The translations under genes were made by a program, and so were the position numbers. This document shows, piece by piece, positions 29,450 to 63,454 of a stretch of DNA of 63,454 nucleotides (position 1 is the first letter of the stretch; each line of letters begins with the position of its first letter). Below the pieces are notes generated by a model. That model was not told where the DNA came from, searched no databases, and was given only the letters and a program-made list of their open reading frames with translations. Location of the stretch: assembly GCA_903913215.1 (NCBI GenBank), contig CAIWKE010000016.1:1-63454 (forward strand), read 5' to 3'. The DNA comes from an uncultured Holophagaceae bacterium. Lineage in GTDB: Bacteria; Acidobacteriota; Holophagae; Holophagales; Holophagaceae.

Positions 29450-30573
29450 TCCATCGCCCGGAGTATGCCGGGTACGACTTCGGACCGGAGCACCCCTTCA
29501 CGCCCGCGCGGCTGGACATGCTCCTGGACCTCCTGCGGGCGCTTGGCCATGAGGTCAGGCCCCAGGCCGGCCCTGCGGCCACCCGGGAGGAGATCCTCAC
29601 GGTGCACGAAGAGGCCTACGTGGCCACCGTGGAGGCCCTGGACCGCGGCGAGCCCCGGCCCCTGGCGGAAGCCCACGGCTTGGGCACCCCGGACAATCCC
29701 ATTTTCCCGGGCATGGACCTGGCCGCCCGCTGGCTGGTGGGCGGTGCCCTCCACGGCGCCCGGCTGCTCATGGCGGGCACTGAGCGGCGCGTGCTGCAGC
29801 TGGGCGGGGGCCTGCACCACGCGCAAAAGGACCGAGCCGAGGGCTTCTGCCTCTACAACGACTTGGCCGTGGCCATCCAGGACATGGTGACCCAGGGCTT
29901 CCGAGTGGCCTATCTCGACATCGACCTCCACCACGGGGATGGTGTCCAGAATCTCTTCTACAACCACGACCAGGTCCTCACCATCAGCCTCCACGAATCC
30001 GGCCACTACCTCTTCCCGGGCACGGGCCATGTCCAGGAAGTGGGTGGACCGAAGGCCCTGGGCACCACGGTGAACGTGCCCCTGGAGCCCTACACCGGCG
30101 CCGAGGACTACCTGGCAGCCTTCGAGGCCGTGGTGCCCCGGGCCCTGGCCTGGTTTCAACCGGACATCCTGCTGGTGCAGGCGGGGGCCGACGCCCACTT
30201 CGAGGATCCCCTGGGGGACCTGGCCCTCACGACCCAGACCTTCCAGACGCTCTTCAACCGGATCCTGGAGCTGGCGGACCAGTACACGCAGGGCCGGGTG
30301 CTCTTCACCCTGGGCGGCGGCTACGAGGCCCACGTGGTGGCCCGGGTCTGGACCCTGCTCACCCTCACCGTCCTCGGGCTGCCCCTGCCGGAACGCCTGC
30401 CCCCGGAGTGGGCCGAGCGCTGGCGGAAGCTGCTGGGACCGGGCAACGGCGCCCGACTCCACGACCCTGTGCCAGCCTTCCCGGCCTTGCAGGGTGGCGA
30501 AGCACGAACCCGCCGCAACCGCGACATCGTGACCCGCCTACTGGACCATCTCGTGCCGCACTGGGAGGCCTGA
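29437..30573 (+). CDS. acuC: Histone-deacetylase-family protein, AcuC-like
   Basis: This 378-residue zinc-dependent deacetylase of the class I/II HDAC superfamily shows GGGLHHAQKDRAEGFCLYND (about residues 129-148), the metal-binding YLDIDLHHGDGVQNLF (about 167-182), LVQAGADAHFEDPLGD (about 247-262) and the GGGYEAHVVARVW loop with the catalytic tyrosine. AcuC reactivates acetyl-CoA synthetase by removing acetyl-lysine; the preceding GNAT fusion and CBS-ACT genes complete an acuABC-like set. The longest frame begins at 29419, but the ATG at 29437 gives the usual N-terminus (HRPEYAGYDFGPEHP). It overlaps the preceding gene by 13 bases. Confidence 0.88.
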   Translation: MATLIHRPEYAGYDFGPEHPFTPARLDMLLDLLRALGHEVRPQAGPAATREEILTVHEEAYVATVEALDRGEPRPLAEAHGLGTPDNPIFPGMDLAARWLVGGALHGARLLMAGTERRVLQLGGGLHHAQKDRAEGFCLYNDLAVAIQDMVTQGFRVAYLDIDLHHGDGVQNLFYNHDQVLTISLHESGHYLFPGTGHVQEVGGPKALGTTVNVPLEPYTGAEDYLAAFEAVVPRALAWFQPDILLVQAGADAHFEDPLGDLALTTQTFQTLFNRILELADQYTQGRVLFTLGGGYEAHVVARVWTLLTLTVLGLPLPERLPPEWAERWRKLLGPGNGARLHDPVPAFPALQGGEARTRRNRDIVTRLLDHLVPHWEA

Positions 30574-57093: not shown

Positions 57094-57204
57094 AAATGGT
57101 TTTTCAAAGAGGCCCCCAAAGATCCCGCAGCCACGCGACGGCCGAAGGCTGGCACCATGGCTGATCACCGGGCTAGGCGGGTGATCATAGCTTCAGGAGT
57201 CCCC

Positions 57205-58413
57205 ATGCGCGAGACGGCAACTGTCCCAGGGCAGGAGAGGGCCAAGGGTTCTGGCAGCTTCCTGCGCGCCCTCCTCGTCGGCACCCTGCTGGCGCTCACG
57301 CCCGTCCTGTCCCTGCTTGCCCAGACTGCCCCGGCAGCACCAGTCCACGTGGCCACCTTCGACTCGGGCTTCGGGGGCTACCTCACGGCCAAGAGCATCG
57401 AAGGCACGGCGACCACCCTCCTGCGGGACTACGACACCACCATCACCATCCATCACTATGGGGACACCAAGAACTTGCCCTACGGCGAGAAGTCGCCGGG
57501 CCAGATCGCCACCCTGGGCAGCGCCGGCGTGCTGCGGGCCTTCGAGCAGGGGGCGGACATGGTCTTCATCGCCTGCAACACGGCCTCCACCCAGTACGCC
57601 CGCATCCGCCAGGCTGTGGATGCCGCCTACCCCGGCCAGGACAAGCCCGTGGTCTCCATCATCGAGGCCTCGGCCCAGGAGGCCAAGCGACGCCTGGACC
57701 TGGCTCTGCAGCAGCGGCCCACGGCCATCCTCGCCATCCTCGCCACCCCCGCCACTGTGAAGAGCATGGTCTATCCGCGACAGCTGGCGGCCCTTTACGG
57801 CACGACCTTGGCGGAGGAGGGTGCCCGCAGCTTCCCCCAGGCCCGCTGGTACACGGCCAACGGTCCCAGCATCACCAGCCTCACCCAGAAGAGCGTCATC
57901 ACCCTGTCCGGTGGTCGCCACATCGAGGTCTTCCAGCTGGCTCCAGCCAACTGGGTGGAGCTCATCGAGCACGGCGGTGACGCCCAGGCCAAGCAGGTGG
58001 CCGTGCGCCGGGACTTGGCCTTGCTCCTACCTCAGCTGCCCAAGGATGCGGCCCCAGACGTGGTTGGCTATTTCTGCACTCACTATCCGATCTTCGACGC
58101 CACCATCCGCTCGGAGATGACCGCCCAGTGCCCTGTCGCCAGGTCCACCAGCTACATCTCCCAGGGCGCGCTCATGGCAGACCTCTTCAAGACTATGGCT
58201 GAGGCGCGCCTCAAGGGCCGCCAGCGCAAGGCCCCGGTGGACGCGCAGGCCCTGCAGGCCCTGGTGGACACCGCCCGCGCCAGCATCACCATCAGCGGCC
58301 AGAATGGCGCCGTCACCCGGGAGCTGGTCCGCACCATGTTCCCCAAGGATCCCGCGCCCCTGGTGGTCGAAGAGGACATGGGCAGCCTGGCGCCAGAACC
58401 CGCACCAAGATAG
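57205..58413 (+). CDS. Glutamate/aspartate racemase homologue with signal peptide
   Basis: The 402-residue protein starts at the ATG at 57205 (AGGAG at 57195-57199). Residues about 20-46 are a hydrophobic export signal (LRALLVGTLLALTPVLSLLA, then AQTAPAAP). The rest follows glutamate racemase MurI: VATFDSGFGGYLTAKSIE, HYGDTKNLPYGEKSP, first catalytic cysteine in VFIACNTASTQYARI, ILATPATVKSMVY and second cysteine in VGYFCTHYPIFDATI. MurI is normally cytosolic and about 270 residues, so both export and the extra 100 C-terminal residues are unusual. It may interconvert free D- and L-Glu or Asp released from peptidoglycan in the periplasm. It follows the wall-recycling operon after a 244-base gap and could be separate. 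Confidence 0.82.
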   Translation: MRETATVPGQERAKGSGSFLRALLVGTLLALTPVLSLLAQTAPAAPVHVATFDSGFGGYLTAKSIEGTATTLLRDYDTTITIHHYGDTKNLPYGEKSPGQIATLGSAGVLRAFEQGADMVFIACNTASTQYARIRQAVDAAYPGQDKPVVSIIEASAQEAKRRLDLALQQRPTAILAILATPATVKSMVYPRQLAALYGTTLAEEGARSFPQARWYTANGPSITSLTQKSVITLSGGRHIEVFQLAPANWVELIEHGGDAQAKQVAVRRDLALLLPQLPKDAAPDVVGYFCTHYPIFDATIRSEMTAQCPVARSTSYISQGALMADLFKTMAEARLKGRQRKAPVDAQALQALVDTARASITISGQNGAVTRELVRTMFPKDPAPLVVEEDMGSLAPEPAPR

Positions 58414-58421
58414 CTTCCAAC

Positions 58422-58751
58422 CTAGCCGCGCCGCCACACGTAACGATCGATGGTCTCAGGCTGGAAATCCACCTTGAGCCAGAAGGCACGGGCGGTGAAG
58501 CGGACCCGGTCGGCGATGATGAAGGCGTGGTTCCGCTTTAAGTGGTCGATGACTGCCCGGGCGATGCCCTGACCTTCGAATTCCGGGTAGATCATGATGG
58601 AGAACACGGTGAACTGAGTGGTCTCAATGCGGCACCGGGACTTGCCGACCTGCGTGCCCGCCTGTTCGATGTCGAACCAGTCGTAATCGCCAAGCCCCGG
58701 AGAGCGTGGCTGCTGGATCAGGGCCAGGTCGGGTCCGATGGTCTGGATCAT
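58422..58751 (-). CDS. Small GNAT-like N-acetyltransferase
   Basis: The 109-residue protein has a compact GNAT core: SIMIYPEFEGQGIARAVIDH (about residues 51-70) corresponds to motif A with the acetyl-CoA pyrophosphate loop (Q-x-x-G-x-A type, EGQGIA). The N-terminal strands are short and the C-terminal motif B is poor, so it is smaller than typical GNATs (about 140-160). Its start codon overlaps the stop of the deacetylase gene (ATGA), meaning acetyl-adding and acetyl-removing enzymes are probably made from one message. The target is unknown: a protein, a polyamine or another small amine are all possible. Confidence 0.6.
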   Translation of the reverse strand: MIQTIGPDLALIQQPRSPGLGDYDWFDIEQAGTQVGKSRCRIETTQFTVFSIMIYPEFEGQGIARAVIDHLKRNHAFIIADRVRFTARAFWLKVDFQPETIDRYVWRRG

Positions 58752-59506
58752 TGGGCGAATCCTTGACAGAAGGCGAGCACGTTGGCCCCCAGGTCTTTCA
58801 GGTAGTAGCCACCTTCCAGCACGGCGAAGCGGCGCCCGCGGCAGACCCGCCGGGACGCTGCTCCGATCAGGGCACCAAGGCGCTGGAAATCCGGCGTATC
58901 GAGCTTGTGACCAACATCATGCCGGTAGCCGTCGAACCCTGCGGAGACAGCGATGATGTCCGTCGGCCCGAGCTCTGCCAGACGCGTCTCCACCACTTCC
59001 AGGTATTCCCAAGAGGTGGCTGCGAAGGGGTTGAAGATCTCCGCCTGGGGCCAGTGGGCAAGCACCTCCCGGGTTCCGTCTCCTGTGTGGGCGTCGATGT
59101 CGATGACGAAGGCGCGCTCAATGCGCCGCTCCTCCCGCAGCACCAGCAGAGCCAAGGCGACATTGCTGAAGGTGCAGTGGCCCCAGGCGCTCAGGCGCGA
59201 GGCGTGGTGTCCCGGCGGGCGTACGCAGGCGAAGGCCGGTTCCCCTCCGTGGGCCAAACGGCCTGCCAGAATTGCGCCGCCGGCGGCCAGGCTGGCCATG
59301 GCGAACCGGGGCTGGTCCGCCCTCACCGTCTGCAGATAGGCCTCATCGTGGCCCAGCAGCAGCTGCTCCAGTGGCGCTGGCGAAGGGGCGATGGTCTCCC
59401 AGACCGAGGCCAGTCCACTCATGGCAGCTTCCATCCGGCCCACCAACCCGGCGTTGTCGGGGGCGTAAGTGGGATCCTCGAAGCGCGTATCGTAGACCAC
59501 CTTCAT
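58748..59506 (-). CDS. HDAC-superfamily deacetylase, divergent type
   Basis: This 252-residue zinc amidohydrolase of the histone deacetylase/acetylpolyamine amidohydrolase superfamily keeps VRPPGHHASRLSAWGHCTFS (about 94-113), metal ligands in FVIDIDAHTGDGTREVL (about 133-149), the aspartate in VSAGFDGYRHD (about 187-197) and the tyrosine loop EGGYYLKDLGANV. The usual HHGNGT reads HTGDGT, so one of the tandem histidine positions is changed although the ligating histidine remains. The protein is short and lacks the normal LHEyPGTG region. It may act on acetyl-lysine or acetylpolyamines. It sits six bases after the MBL gene and overlaps a GNAT gene. Confidence 0.8.
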   Translation of the reverse strand: MKVVYDTRFEDPTYAPDNAGLVGRMEAAMSGLASVWETIAPSPAPLEQLLLGHDEAYLQTVRADQPRFAMASLAAGGAILAGRLAHGGEPAFACVRPPGHHASRLSAWGHCTFSNVALALLVLREERRIERAFVIDIDAHTGDGTREVLAHWPQAEIFNPFAATSWEYLEVVETRLAELGPTDIIAVSAGFDGYRHDVGHKLDTPDFQRLGALIGAASRRVCRGRRFAVLEGGYYLKDLGANVLAFCQGFAQ

Positions 59507-59512
59507 GGCGCC

Positions 59513-60130
59513 TCACTCCTGAATGAGCGACTGGTGGACGTTGTCCAGGCAGGTGCGGATGAACTCTGTCGCATTCTGGAGAATGGGGCTGCCATGGCCT
59601 GGATAGATGGCTTGCACCTGCAGCCCAGCCAGCCGTTCAAGCGTGCTCACGTAGGCCTTGGGGTAGGCGCCCAAGTGATCGTTGATCCGGTACAGGGTGT
59701 CTCCGGAAAAGAGGATTCCCGTCTCAGGTAGAAACAGGCAGATGGAATCGTCCGAGTGGCCGGGCGTGTAAAGGATGAGGCCTGCCTGGTCGCCCACCAT
59801 CACAGCCTGATGATCATGCGTGGGCATGGGTCTCTGCCCTGCGGGAATCCAGGCATAGGTTTCCGGACCGAACTGCTGATCGATGGCCGGCAGCCCGCCG
59901 ATATGGTCGAAGTGGCAATGCGTGAGGATCACCTGCTCCACAGCCTGTTTGCCGATGCCCTTTGGCTGACGGGCCATCTCCTTCAGGAAGTACCAGAGGT
60001 TCCCTGGATCGGTACTGCCCGTGTCGATGAGCGTGTTGCGGTCGGTGGCCGTGTTGTTCTCGCCCAGCACCCAGTAGGAGACACAGGAATAGTCGTGGGG
60101 GTCGTCCCGGTGCAGGGGCAGGACGCGCAT
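59513..60130 (-). CDS. MBL-fold metallohydrolase, glyoxalase II-like
   Basis: This 205-residue protein has LTHCHFDHIGGLPAIDQQFG (about 70-89) with the zinc histidines and aspartate, LYTPGHSDDSICLFLP, ILFSGDTLYRIND and a final AIYPGHGSPI, so the di-metal site is complete. The N-terminus DPHDYSCVSYWVLGENN and ALIDTG-like strand are typical of hydroxyacylglutathione-hydrolase relatives. It may hydrolyse a thioester or lactone. Its start is three bases after the CheR-like gene stop and its stop is six bases before the deacetylase gene, so it is part of a compact four-gene operon. The substrate is not deducible. Confidence 0.8.
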   Translation of the reverse strand: MRVLPLHRDDPHDYSCVSYWVLGENNTATDRNTLIDTGSTDPGNLWYFLKEMARQPKGIGKQAVEQVILTHCHFDHIGGLPAIDQQFGPETYAWIPAGQRPMPTHDHQAVMVGDQAGLILYTPGHSDDSICLFLPETGILFSGDTLYRINDHLGAYPKAYVSTLERLAGLQVQAIYPGHGSPILQNATEFIRTCLDNVHQSLIQE

Positions 60131-60133
60131 GGC

Positions 60134-60748
60134 TCAGACCACAGGTTTCTGGAAGAGCGGGGTGCCCCGCTCCACCTGGATGAACCGGGTCGCGAAGGCC
60201 CTTGGCATGAGCTGGTTGCCGTCCAGGGCCAGGTAGCCCCCTGGCACGAGGGCCAGGTAGAACATGTCGAGCACCTTCACCTGGTCCTCGGGAGAGAAGT
60301 GCATCAGCACGTTCTTGCAGACGATGAGGGAGTGCCCGATCTCCGGCGCCTCCAAGGTCAGCAGATCGTGCTGGAGGTAGCGCACCCGCTCGCGGATTGC
60401 GTCGGTCAACCGGAAGACCTCCGGGTTGTCCGTGGCCTCGAAATACTGCTCCCGGTGCGGCGCGGGCACCCAGAAGATGTCCTGCCGGCTGTATTCGGCC
60501 GCGCGGATCCGGTCCGCGAACTGGGCGTAGTTGCTCTCCTCGTAATCCGTGGCGAGGACGTCCAGGTTGCGGAAGTGGAAAGCGCCCAGCTTCGCGGCAA
60601 AGAGAATGGCGATCGTGAAGGGTTCCTCACCCGAGGCGCAGCCCGCATCCCAGACCCGGATCGTTCTCGAGTGGCTGATGGCGGGAATGACGATGTCACT
60701 GATGGCATTCAGGGCATCTGTGTCTCTAAAAAAGGAGGTGTAGGCCAT
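60134..60748 (-). CDS. CheR-like SAM-dependent methyltransferase lacking the N-terminal subdomain
   Basis: The 204-residue protein corresponds to the catalytic part of the chemotaxis methyltransferase CheR: SFFRDTDALNAISDIVIPAI at the start, the SAM motif RVWDAGCASGEEPFTIAI (about residues 30-47), LATDYEESNYAQFAD, and HSLIVCKNVLMHFSPEDQVK (about 138-157) followed by LVPGGYLALDGNQ. True CheR proteins carry about 75 extra N-terminal residues forming a small helical domain that contacts the receptor; these are absent, and HSE at the end is replaced. The gene leads the MBL/HDAC/GNAT set and is divergent from a chemoreceptor gene, which could be its substrate. A different methyl acceptor is possible. 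Confidence 0.8.
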   Translation of the reverse strand: MAYTSFFRDTDALNAISDIVIPAISHSRTIRVWDAGCASGEEPFTIAILFAAKLGAFHFRNLDVLATDYEESNYAQFADRIRAAEYSRQDIFWVPAPHREQYFEATDNPEVFRLTDAIRERVRYLQHDLLTLEAPEIGHSLIVCKNVLMHFSPEDQVKVLDMFYLALVPGGYLALDGNQLMPRAFATRFIQVERGTPLFQKPVV

Positions 60749-61150
60749 GGCTGACTGAGCTTTCTCGGTGGACGGTCAAAGACACGGGTGGGAACGGAAG
60801 TGCGCTTCCCTGGCAGTGTAGTCCATCGAAAACCCGATCCCCGGGGTGGGATCAAGGTTGTGACCAGGCCTTGTCAGAGCAGTTCAGTGGCCTGGATTCA
60901 GGCATTTTTTTACCAGGCAAACAAACATCCACTGCCTGATTCGACTCTCCGCGATCAGCGGTCACAACTGTACCTGCGGCTCTTAGGTAAGGGTGTGATG
61001 ACCTTGATTGTCAGCCACAAGCCTGGGTGCTTAATGTCCAGATTAATGATAAACGAGGCATGAATCGATTGAGGGAAGGCAACCCGTCCTGTCTGAAAGT
61101 GAACCTTTCACGCCCATTACATTTCCACACCCTCTTCAAGGAGATGCTCC
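60749..61150. other. 402-base divergent intergenic region, no gene found
   Basis: This space between the CheR-like operon and the chemoreceptor gene is less GC-rich than the surroundings. It contains small inverted repeats: CCTGGATTCAGG around 60892-60903 and TGAAAG-TGAAC-CTTTCA near 61094-61110, the latter close before the chemoreceptor start and perhaps an operator. AAGGAG at 61138-61143 is the chemoreceptor ribosome binding site. I found no convincing sigma-70, sigma-54 or sigma-28 promoter. A 91-codon frame at 60788-61063 does not look like a protein. Confidence 0.5.
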
Positions 61151-63454
61151 ATGCGATTCCTCGACAACACCAAGATGGGACCCAAACTCATCGGGGCCTT
61201 CATGCTTGTGGCCGCGCTATTGGTGGGCATGGGGCTCCTGGGCAGCAACAAGATCCAGAGCATTGAGGCAGCTGACGCCGACCTCTATCTCAAGATGACC
61301 GTCCCGCTCGGTGAGATGGGGGACATCCGACAGGCCTTCCAGCGCCAGCGAGTCAATTTGCGAGACGCCATCATGACGGGAGATTCCGAAAAATTTGGGG
61401 GTCGGATCAAGGAACTCGAGGCAGAGCTGACGGCGCTAGAAGAGTCCTTTCAAAAGACCCTCCTGACCGATGAGGGCAAGGCTGCGTTCAAAACCTACAA
61501 GGATGCCAATTCAAAATATGATCAAGCCTCGATCAAGATTTTGGCCTTGGCCCAGGCCGGAAAATCGAAAGAGGCAGAAGCCATTTTGAGGGGCGATGGT
61601 GCCAAGGCAACTGCTGAAGTAAACAGTGCCCTGGATACTCTCCAGAAAATGAAGCTGTCGCTCGCCAAGAAGACGGCTGAATCCAACACCATCATGGCTG
61701 ATGGGGCCAGTCGCCTGATGTACATCATCATGGGCATTGCCGTAGTCTTCTCCGTGGGCATCGGCTGGATCCTCACCAAGTCCATCACCGGCCCCCTGGG
61801 CCAGGGCGTGGAGATGATGAAGGAGATGGCCAAGGGCCACCTGGGCACGCGCCTCAAGATGGAGCGCACCGATGAGATCGGCGACCTGGCCAAGGCCATG
61901 GACGGCTTCACAGACAACCTCCAGGGCATCGTGGGAGGCCTGCAGGAGATCGCCAAGGGCGACCTGAGCCGTGACTGGGTAGCTGCTGATGCCCAGGACG
62001 AGATCAACCCTGCCCTGAAGCAGGTCCGCACCAACCTGCAGGCGCTGGTCACTGATGCCGCCATGCTCAACCAGGCCGCCGTCGAAGGCAAGCTGGCCAC
62101 CCGCGCCGATGCATCCAAGCATCAGGGTGACTTCCAGAAGATCGTCTCCGGGGTCAATGAAACCCTCGACGCGGTCATCGGCCCCCTGAACGTGGCAGCC
62201 GAATATGTGGACAGGATCAGCAAGGGCGACATCCCGCCTAAGATCACCGACAACTACAATGGCGATTTCAACGAGGTCAAGAACAACCTGAACCAGTGCA
62301 TTGATGCGGTGAATTCTCTGGTCGCCGACGCCAATATGCTGTCGAACGCAGCCATGGAAGGCAAGCTGGCCACCCGCGCGGATGCATCCAAGCACCAGGG
62401 TGACTTCCAGAAGATCGTCACTGGTGTCAATCAAACCCTGGATGCCGTCATCGGTCCGCTGAACGTGGCTGCCGGTTACGTCGACCGGATCTCGAAAGGC
62501 GATATCCCACCCAGGATCACCGATACCTACAACGGTGACTTCAACACCCTCAAGAACAACCTCAATACCTGTATCGACGCCGTCAATGCGCTGGTGGCCG
62601 ACGCCAACCTGCTGGCCCAGGCGGCCATCGCCGGCAAGCTGGAAACCCGCGCCGATGCCTCCAAGCATCAGGGCGACTTCCAGAAGATCGTCGCCGGTGT
62701 CAATCAAACCCTGGATGCGGTGATCGCTCCGATCAACGATGTGCAACGGGTCATGGGGGCGATGTCCAATGGCGACATGACCGAGACCGTGACGCAGAGT
62801 TACCAGGGCGATTTCGACGTGCTCAAGCAGGCGATCAATACCACGGTGGCCAAGCTGACCGACACCATCGGCCAGATCAACTCGGCGGCCGAGGCTCTGA
62901 ACAATGCTGCTGGCCAGGTTTCGGCGACGGCGCAGTCGCTGTCGCAGTCGTCCTCGGAGCAGGCGGCCTCGGTGGAAGAGACCACCGCCAGCATCGAAGA
63001 GATGACGGCCAGCATCACCCAGAACACCGAGAACGCCAAGGTGACGGACAACATGGCTTCGAAGTCCTCGGTCGAAGCGACCCAGGGCGGCACGGCGGTC
63101 AAGGATACCGTCGAGGCGATGAAGTCGATCGCCGGCAAGATCGGCATCATCGACGACATTGCCTACCAGACCAATCTGCTGGCGCTCAACGCCGCGATCG
63201 AGGCGGCACGGGCCGGCGATGCGGGCCGCGGCTTCGCCGTGGTCGCCGCGGAAGTCCGCAAGCTGGCCGAGCGCAGTCAGGTCGCGGCACAGGAACTCGG
63301 GCAACTGGCCGCCTCCAGCGTCAAGACCGCCGAGCATGCCGGCGTGCTACTCGACGAAATGCTGCCGTCCATCAGGAAGACTTCCGCACTGGTGCAGGAA
63401 ATCGCCTCGGCATCGGCGGAGCAGAGCAGCAGCGTGGGCCAGATCAACGGCGCC
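61151..63454 (+). CDS. Methyl-accepting chemotaxis protein with tandem HAMP-like repeats (3' end missing)
   Basis: The gene is open to the window edge (768 codons seen). The first membrane helix is at about 13-32, followed by a periplasmic four-helix-bundle type sensor, and the second helix at about 186-208 ([20 protein letters not shown]). A HAMP domain follows, then three 91-residue repeats starting near residues 313, 404 and 495 (each beginning [20 protein letters not shown] or close), which read as extra HAMP-like units. The signalling region includes [18 protein letters not shown] and the tip [20 protein letters not shown] (about 664-683). It should be methylated and signal through CheA/CheW; the divergent CheR-like gene may be related. 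AAGGAG seven bases before the ATG supports the start. Confidence 0.9.
62087..62740 (+). repeat. Three tandem 273-bp coding repeats in the chemoreceptor gene
   Basis: GGCAAGCTGG recurs at 62087, 62360 and 62633, an exact 273-base (91-codon) spacing, and about 110 bases after each are nearly identical (for example GACTTCCAGAAGATCGTC in all three). The third copy diverges after about 110 bases. The repeats encode the HAMP-like units. High nucleotide identity suggests recent duplication or gene conversion. Confidence 0.9.

Follow-up and report, generated by a model that had tools for sequence, protein, structure and literature searches.

In this study we have analysed a four-gene operon encoded in a 63,454-nucleotide stretch of DNA ('the window') from an uncultured Holophagaceae bacterium (GenBank assembly GCA_903913215.1, contig CAIWKE010000016.1). 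Located on the minus strand at positions 58422-60748, the operon encodes, in the order of transcription, a short CheR, a metallo-β-lactamase-fold (MBL) hydrolase, a minimal histone deacetylase (HDAC)-family deacetylase and a GNAT acetyltransferase. The gene order is conserved across phyla, the four genes are co-inherited and linked to chemotaxis genes, and their catalytic residues are conserved. The cassette consists of two separable pairs, short CheR with MBL and HDAC with GNAT, each of which also occurs alone in chemotaxis clusters. We propose, with somewhat less than even confidence, that the operon serves a poly-HAMP chemosensory system as a module of accessory enzymes, which would covalently tune the array via S-adenosylmethionine (SAM)- and acetyl-CoA-dependent modification.

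Gene order and co-inheritance of the cassette

The initial annotation, made from the window's sequence alone, had described a tightly spaced CheR-like/MBL/HDAC/GNAT composition, and the open reading frames (ORFs), the Pfam matches and a structural model of the GNAT bear this out. The short CheR gene (60134..60748, 204 aa) is followed after 3 bases by the MBL gene (59513..60130, 205 aa) and, after a further 6 bases, by the HDAC gene (58748..59506, 252 aa). The GNAT gene (58422..58751, 109 aa) overlaps the HDAC gene (spacing -4), its start lying over the HDAC stop in an ATGA. A simple sigma-70-type promoter scan of 58300-61300 gave no site.

Among 60 genomes (the window's own, 36 of the same genus and 23 others) a close HDAC is present in the own genome and in five of the 36, i.e. 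in a patchy 6 of 37 genomes within the genus, own included. The short CheR is found in the same six genomes and in G027 (51%), and the GNAT in the same six and in G034. A further search added a seventh HDAC carrier in the genus and a more remote one (G110, 63%) from a different family; the weaker matches seen in other genera belong to HDACs of other kinds. Beyond this set, a scan of public genome contigs with an HDAC alignment yielded 428 relatives, 80 of which were kept. Of 100 HDACs placed in a tree, 56 group in a single clade (support 100/99) with members in Holophagaceae, Spirochaetota, Desulfobacterales, Deltaproteobacteria, Latescibacterota, Planctomycetota, Ignavibacteria, betaproteobacteria and Methanosarcinales/ANME-2, although single placements may be wrong since the carriers are almost all metagenome-assembled genomes. 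GNAT accompanies 53 of the 56 clade members; L064 and L102 stop at a contig end, and L091 has no GNAT in the 789 bases left.

As a check on its proposal, the initial annotation had suggested looking for the same gene order in other genera, and the order does persist: all four genes stand in the same order and on the same strand in 25 of the 54 clade loci of the scan, which range over Acidobacteriota, Spirochaetota and Desulfobacterales among the bacteria and Methanosarcinales/ANME-2 among the archaea. Nine of these 25 are closely related Holophagaceae loci, the spacing is wider or takes in an extra gene in some of the 25, and contig ends truncate some of the remaining clade loci. Between the four proteins, pairwise distances are correlated at r of 0.93-0.97 (23 loci, with the incomplete L103, L096 and L113 omitted). 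The set therefore seems to have been inherited as a whole, although descent shared by the carriers contributes to r. While greedy ORF calls choose wrong frames in G+C-rich loci, the counts are independent of these calls. The idea of the four genes as one unit thus holds as far as their order across phyla is concerned and has to be qualified in that the two pairs are also found apart.

Several variations surround the core set. An additional methyltransferase-like gene (~206 aa) lies between short CheR and MBL in L068, L071, L076, L079, L096 and L103 (archaea and a planctomycete), and is placed after MBL in L102. Several Holophagaceae (L047-L052) have large ORFs downstream of GNAT, after the cassette; in L050 and L052 they encode hybrid histidine kinases that combine PAS, GAF and receiver domains. 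In the window itself, the gene convergent with the operon (57157-58413, plus strand) encodes a glutamate-racemase-like protein (TIGR00067, 75.3 bits, below the cut-off of 146.65) with what by eye appears to be a long signal-peptide-like N-terminal extension.

Conserved sites and folds of the four proteins

The roles of the HDAC, MBL and CheR residues followed below in catalysis or metal binding are established. The window short CheR matches the SAM-binding CheR domain (PF01739, 119.8 bits) and has no Pfam match to CheR_N (PF03705), the N-terminal all-alpha domain, in line with the earlier description of a CheR without its receptor-binding part; the canonical CheR of L061, by contrast, carries PF03705. 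For extraction of the family, CheR matches were retained at >90 bits or >33% identity to exclude canonical CheR. The family begins at a conserved N-terminus, MA[FY]T.FFRD, and has a second signature, CKNVLxH. The FFR arginine is kept in 25 of 26 aligned sequences and D68 in all 26, while a histidine replaces the IYF tyrosine in 27 of 27 cassette members and in the further short-CheR members that reach that far in the alignment (L213 ends before it). We take the arginine and the tyrosine to be R79 and Y218 of Treponema denticola CheR, a mapping that agrees with our alignment.

By these residues the CheR family splits into three kinds: canonical CheRs, mostly with FFR and CRNVxIYF; spirochaete CheW-CheR-like proteins, in which the arginine is lost and the second motif reads RDxLS; and the short CheR, with FFR kept and CKNVLxH. 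The spirochaete kind is represented by L232, which has a CheW match in the same 458-aa frame, and by L226 and L235, classed with it by residues. All three have lost the arginine of FFR, and against the short-CheR profile they reach 32-44 bits, below most canonical CheRs. Residues and profile scores rule out that the short CheR, in the window a free 204-aa protein with no CheW fusion, is an unfused version of the CheW-CheR-like protein; judged by its sequence, it is a distinct kind of CheR. Because the arginine is kept and an invariant histidine replaces the tyrosine, the short CheR may be active as a methyltransferase on some other target, or its ability to methylate receptors may have been lost.

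The MBL protein (Lactamase_B, 85 bits) has the full HxHxDH...H...D...H metal site, and each residue of this binuclear site (H71, H73, D75, H76, H125, D144 and H179) is conserved in 31 of 31 sequences. Against the ODP family PF19583 the window protein scores 18.8 bits and its relative in L210 24.2 bits, both below the Pfam cut-off of 27.2, so that by this match it is not assigned to ODP.

The HDAC matches Hist_deacetyl (PF00850) with 119 bits. Its tandem histidines H100 and H101 are conserved in 62 of 62 sequences, D138 in 62 of 63, H140 in 63 of 63, and D192 and Y234 each in 60 of 61. The structural model (pLDDT 95.4) aligns with solved HDACs over 244-252 residues at Z of 31.1-34.4 (50 matches listed), and the domain is therefore predicted to be complete but minimal. 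In fold and catalytic residues it resembles bacterial HDAC-like enzymes and acetylpolyamine amidohydrolases, but it has 252 aa as compared with 305-374 aa for the bacterial PDB chains listed, and is linked to a GNAT and to chemotaxis genes. The fold is one that acetylpolyamine amidohydrolases share, and by itself it does not decide polyamine specificity; near what we take to be the position of the HDAC10 gatekeeper Glu, the alignment has a gap and a Gly. The window encodes a second, longer HDAC-family protein (29491-30363, plus strand, 293 bits) which is not part of the cassette. A wider family of short HDACs was found in 116 of the 395 genomes sampled from the phylum of Desulfobacula. In its 30 best loci (L147-L176, flanks of at most 1.5 kb each) a GNAT is found in two and in none of the other 28, and a chemotaxis role for the whole short-HDAC family is thus not supported.

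For the GNAT, described initially as very small and indeed only 109 aa long, the Acetyltransf_7 match of 25.6 bits falls just below the Pfam cut-off of 27. Its AlphaFold2 model (pLDDT 95.8) is predicted to adopt the GNAT fold: the best Foldseek match is RimI (5isv, E 2.6e-5) and the second is 4crz (E 5.3e-5; 4crz_B, TMq 0.73), the latter presumably PanZ. In the region of the GNAT motif, which we take to be R/Q-x-x-G-x-G/A, the window protein reads E-G-Q-G-I-A and other relatives Q-x-x-G-x-G.

Chemotaxis neighbourhood and the two separable pairs

In Desulfobacula (L061) the cassette lies inside a chemotaxis operon. The order of genes is methyl-accepting chemotaxis protein (MCP), short CheR, MBL, HDAC, GNAT, canonical CheR, CheD, receiver, an unassigned ORF, CheB, CheA, receiver, CheX and receiver. 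In G022, of the window's genus, an MCP-CheW-MCP-receiver-CheA-CheR-CheD-CheB operon (by BLAST) is divergent from the cassette. We counted the che genes MCP, CheA, CheB, CheD, CheW, CheX and full-length CheR found by BLAST in the stretch fetched around each HDAC, and detected them in 23 of 54 clade loci as compared with 0 of 26 non-clade loci (nominal Fisher p 3e-5, related loci not being independent). The stretches are of comparable length (medians of 10,020 bases for clade and 11,517 for non-clade loci). The 26 comprise eight short HDACs and eight outgroup HDACs placed in the tree, and ten outgroups assigned by 28-32% identity alone.

The pair of short CheR and MBL was followed by searching the short-CheR alignment against the 395 genomes of the phylum of Desulfobacula (taken as Desulfobacterota), which gave 19 loci in 18 genomes. 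Eighteen of these loci are additional to L061. Other che genes are present in 17 of them, the exception being L196 on a 3.7-kb contig, and the family MBL in 13, one of them cut by a contig end; no HDAC was found in the fetched stretch of any of the 18, and L196 has a weak GNAT piece after the short CheR. The two genes stand in reverse order in L207 and L208, and in L210 the MBL lies 2 kb from the short CheR with a FapA and a receiver gene between them; this FapA-like gene (L210:5952-7394, minus strand) is inside the chemotaxis cluster. Similarly, G027 of the window's genus has MBL and short CheR among MCP, CheW, CheA, CheB and CheR, with no HDAC or GNAT. In G741 the two pairs are on different contigs: short CheR and MBL stand beside CheA on one of them, and CheD-HDAC-GNAT on a second of 4.4 kb. 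The reciprocal arrangement, HDAC-GNAT without short CheR-MBL, occurs at 23 clade loci, of which roughly half are truncated upstream; the pair directly follows CheD in L089 and stands ahead of CheR, CheB and CheD in L085.

Next to the operon in the window, across a 402-base intergenic region (60749..61150), is a divergent poly-HAMP chemoreceptor gene (61151..63454, plus strand), encoding 4HB_MCP_1, HAMP, three HAMP_2 and an MCP signalling domain before it is cut by the contig end. While the genome of the window has 23 MCPsignal matches above cut-off, HAMP_2 is found in only two ORFs, this receptor and one at the start of contig C14. The latter (L141, G000:C14:1-3739) is a second poly-HAMP_2 receptor with eight HAMP_2 by our own model, followed by CheW; contigs C16 and C14 both break within poly-HAMP_2 receptors. 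A receptor with HAMP_2 repeats is present in 19 of the 24 short-CheR loci that have a receptor ORF in view, the window included, although another receptor piece is nearer in L073. The remaining five loci are L057, L071 and L096 (broken frames), L204, whose receptor is a 174-residue piece at a contig end, and L207. In L078 a five-HAMP_2 receptor immediately precedes HDAC-GNAT, the other pair being absent. Since our HAMP_2 and MCP models were built from 7 and 6 sequences of loci later searched, Pfam's own HAMP_2 model served as an independent check: out of 12 receptor proteins, 10 have clear HAMP_2 (window, L048, L061, L069, L089, L093, L102, L109, L200 and L210), that of L071 is marginal and the second L210 receptor has none.

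Possible functions and relation to known systems

Chemotaxis adaptation is a textbook case of reversible protein modification. If the operon does belong to a poly-HAMP chemosensory system as its accessory module, its products would form two writer/eraser-like pairs, the short CheR as a SAM-dependent methyltransferase with the MBL hydrolase, and the GNAT acetyltransferase with the HDAC deacetylase. These would put covalent marks on, and remove them from, a protein of the receptor-CheA-CheW-CheY array, most likely lysine acetylation in the case of HDAC and GNAT, and a methyl or acyl mark in that of short CheR and MBL. Signalling would then be tuned according to the cell's SAM and acetyl-CoA status, in addition to adaptation by CheR/CheB/CheD. 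A fuller version, possible though we would lean against it, is that a lysine acetylation/deacetylation pair and a methyltransferase-hydrolase pair in bacterial and archaeal chemosensory operons constitute a second reversible layer beside CheR/CheB/CheD, adjusting poly-HAMP arrays by acetyl-CoA and SAM supply.

Several points weigh against this explanation. We infer enzyme activity, writer/eraser pairing, a protein substrate and the link to metabolism, and a protein substrate is not distinguishable from a small molecule by sequence. The short CheR has lost the tyrosine essential in receptor-methylating CheR. No che gene is seen in the fetched stretch of 31 of the 54 clade loci, several on short contigs. 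Among the 31 are six of the nine Holophagaceae loci in the scan, one of which (L048) has a HAMP_2 receptor fragment by Pfam; L058, L059, L067, L074, L086, L087 and L106 have no che gene within ~7-8 kb per side. Both CheA matches of the window's genome are on other contigs. All 32 of the clade-carrying genomes that were searched have CheW (37 of the 80 loci entered, L087 omitted), yet so do three of four with a non-clade HDAC; the co-occurrence of CheW is therefore not discriminating and was dropped as a phylogenetic profile. Finally, the pairs themselves are not strict. In L200 a GNAT follows short CheR and MBL with no HDAC, the three genes lying between CheW and a receptor with five HAMP_2, and in G034 an MBL end and an intact GNAT flank a short HDAC remnant, perhaps through an assembly fault given its 520 contigs and 6% contamination. 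The GNAT is thus not everywhere dependent on the HDAC, which rules out an obligate pairing, and balanced production of deacetylase and acetyltransferase, read by the initial annotation from the ATGA overlap, is not a rule.

The same annotation had left open whether the genes make up a self-contained small-molecule pathway or a module linked to the divergent chemoreceptor. The chemotaxis context supports the latter, and the pathway, given how often the genes are found in chemotaxis clusters, has become the less probable of the two. It would nevertheless be conceivable, though in our estimate unlikely, that the enzymes produce, activate or degrade a chemoeffector, or a signal inside the cell, that is read by the neighbouring receptor system, such as an acetylated and methylated amine, an ester or a thioester. 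Consistent with this, the MBL profile is nearest to LACTB2 (4ad9) and glyoxalase II (1xm8), with Bacillus paraoxonase next and the PqsE thioesterase lower down, the HDAC fold takes in acetylpolyamine amidohydrolases, and the extra methyltransferase-like gene enters the cassette in some archaea and a planctomycete. For a linear pathway, however, it would be unexpected that the pairs separate and yet stay tied to chemotaxis genes, and no recurring biosynthetic or transport gene appeared among 50 neighbour proteins given to Pfam, a minority of the neighbours, which yielded only single cases such as a porin beside L073.

Rather unlikely, by analogy with T. denticola, is a scaffold or sensor role, in which the short CheR would be a structural array part binding SAM without receptor methylation, the MBL an ODP-like sensor and the GNAT a PanZ-like sensor of acetyl-CoA. 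In T. denticola, according to the part of the published account cited here, a CheR-like domain fused to CheW binds SAM, is needed for array order, is thought inactive and lacks both R79 and Y218; the oxygen sensor ODP of the organism is coupled to a receptor gene (PMC7666581). Precedents exist for recruiting such proteins to chemotaxis, CheW lies 35-125 bases from the short CheR in 6 of 18 loci, and 4crz_B, presumably PanZ, is second among the GNAT fold matches. The likeness between the systems includes an MBL-like protein, since we take ODP to have such a fold from the Pfam name of PF19583. As opposed to the CheW-fused protein of T. denticola without both essential residues, however, the short CheR is free and retains the FFR arginine, the MBL scores below the ODP cut-off, and the HDAC and MBL metal sites are kept almost throughout; no HDAC or GNAT is named alongside the T. 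denticola system in that part of its description (PMC7666581).

An anti-phage defence system was set aside, the PADLOC matches being weak and without curated cut-offs (mad2 at 1.9e-5 for the methyltransferase, LmuA at 1.1e-4 for the MBL) and PADLOC giving no match for HDAC or GNAT. That the genes are mere neighbours without a shared role, as their patchy presence in the genus (HDAC in 6 of 37 genomes) might suggest, is highly improbable: they keep their order, co-occur and diverge in a correlated manner across phyla and in two domains of life, and the conserved gene order already contradicts it.

Accessory modification enzymes of chemotaxis are a known kind of system. With CheR/CheB/CheD adaptation the cassette shares the CheR fold with its SAM domain (PF01739) and its place in che operons with an MCP; it differs in that the short CheR lacks the N-terminal CheR domain, carries the K and H of CKNVLxH in place of R and Y in CheR, is accompanied by MBL, HDAC and GNAT, and stands beside a canonical CheR in L061. 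To our knowledge, acetylation in chemotaxis is known mainly from Escherichia coli CheY and CobB. In the part of that work cited here CheY is acetylated and CobB is its deacetylase, so that, as we propose for the cassette, the acetylation state of a chemotaxis protein is a layer of control (PMC2883070). The enzymes differ, CobB being Sir2-type and NAD-dependent whereas the cassette encodes an HDAC-type enzyme together with a GNAT, partly inside che operons. In agreement with the initial annotation, which knew of no system of this composition, we found no published description of the four-gene cassette among the papers listed in searches of one open-access library, which is weak evidence of absence as most subscription papers lie outside that search.

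Defined enzymes for the question of acetylation in chemotaxis would be supplied by a portable cassette that combines a GNAT and an HDAC of its own with an MBL and an altered CheR, and that occurs in che clusters of several phyla and of methanogen relatives; a subfamily of bacterial HDACs also gains a physiological context. That the four genes travel in the same order through bacteria and methane-cycle archaea, often in che clusters, suggests an undescribed chemical tuning of cell navigation.

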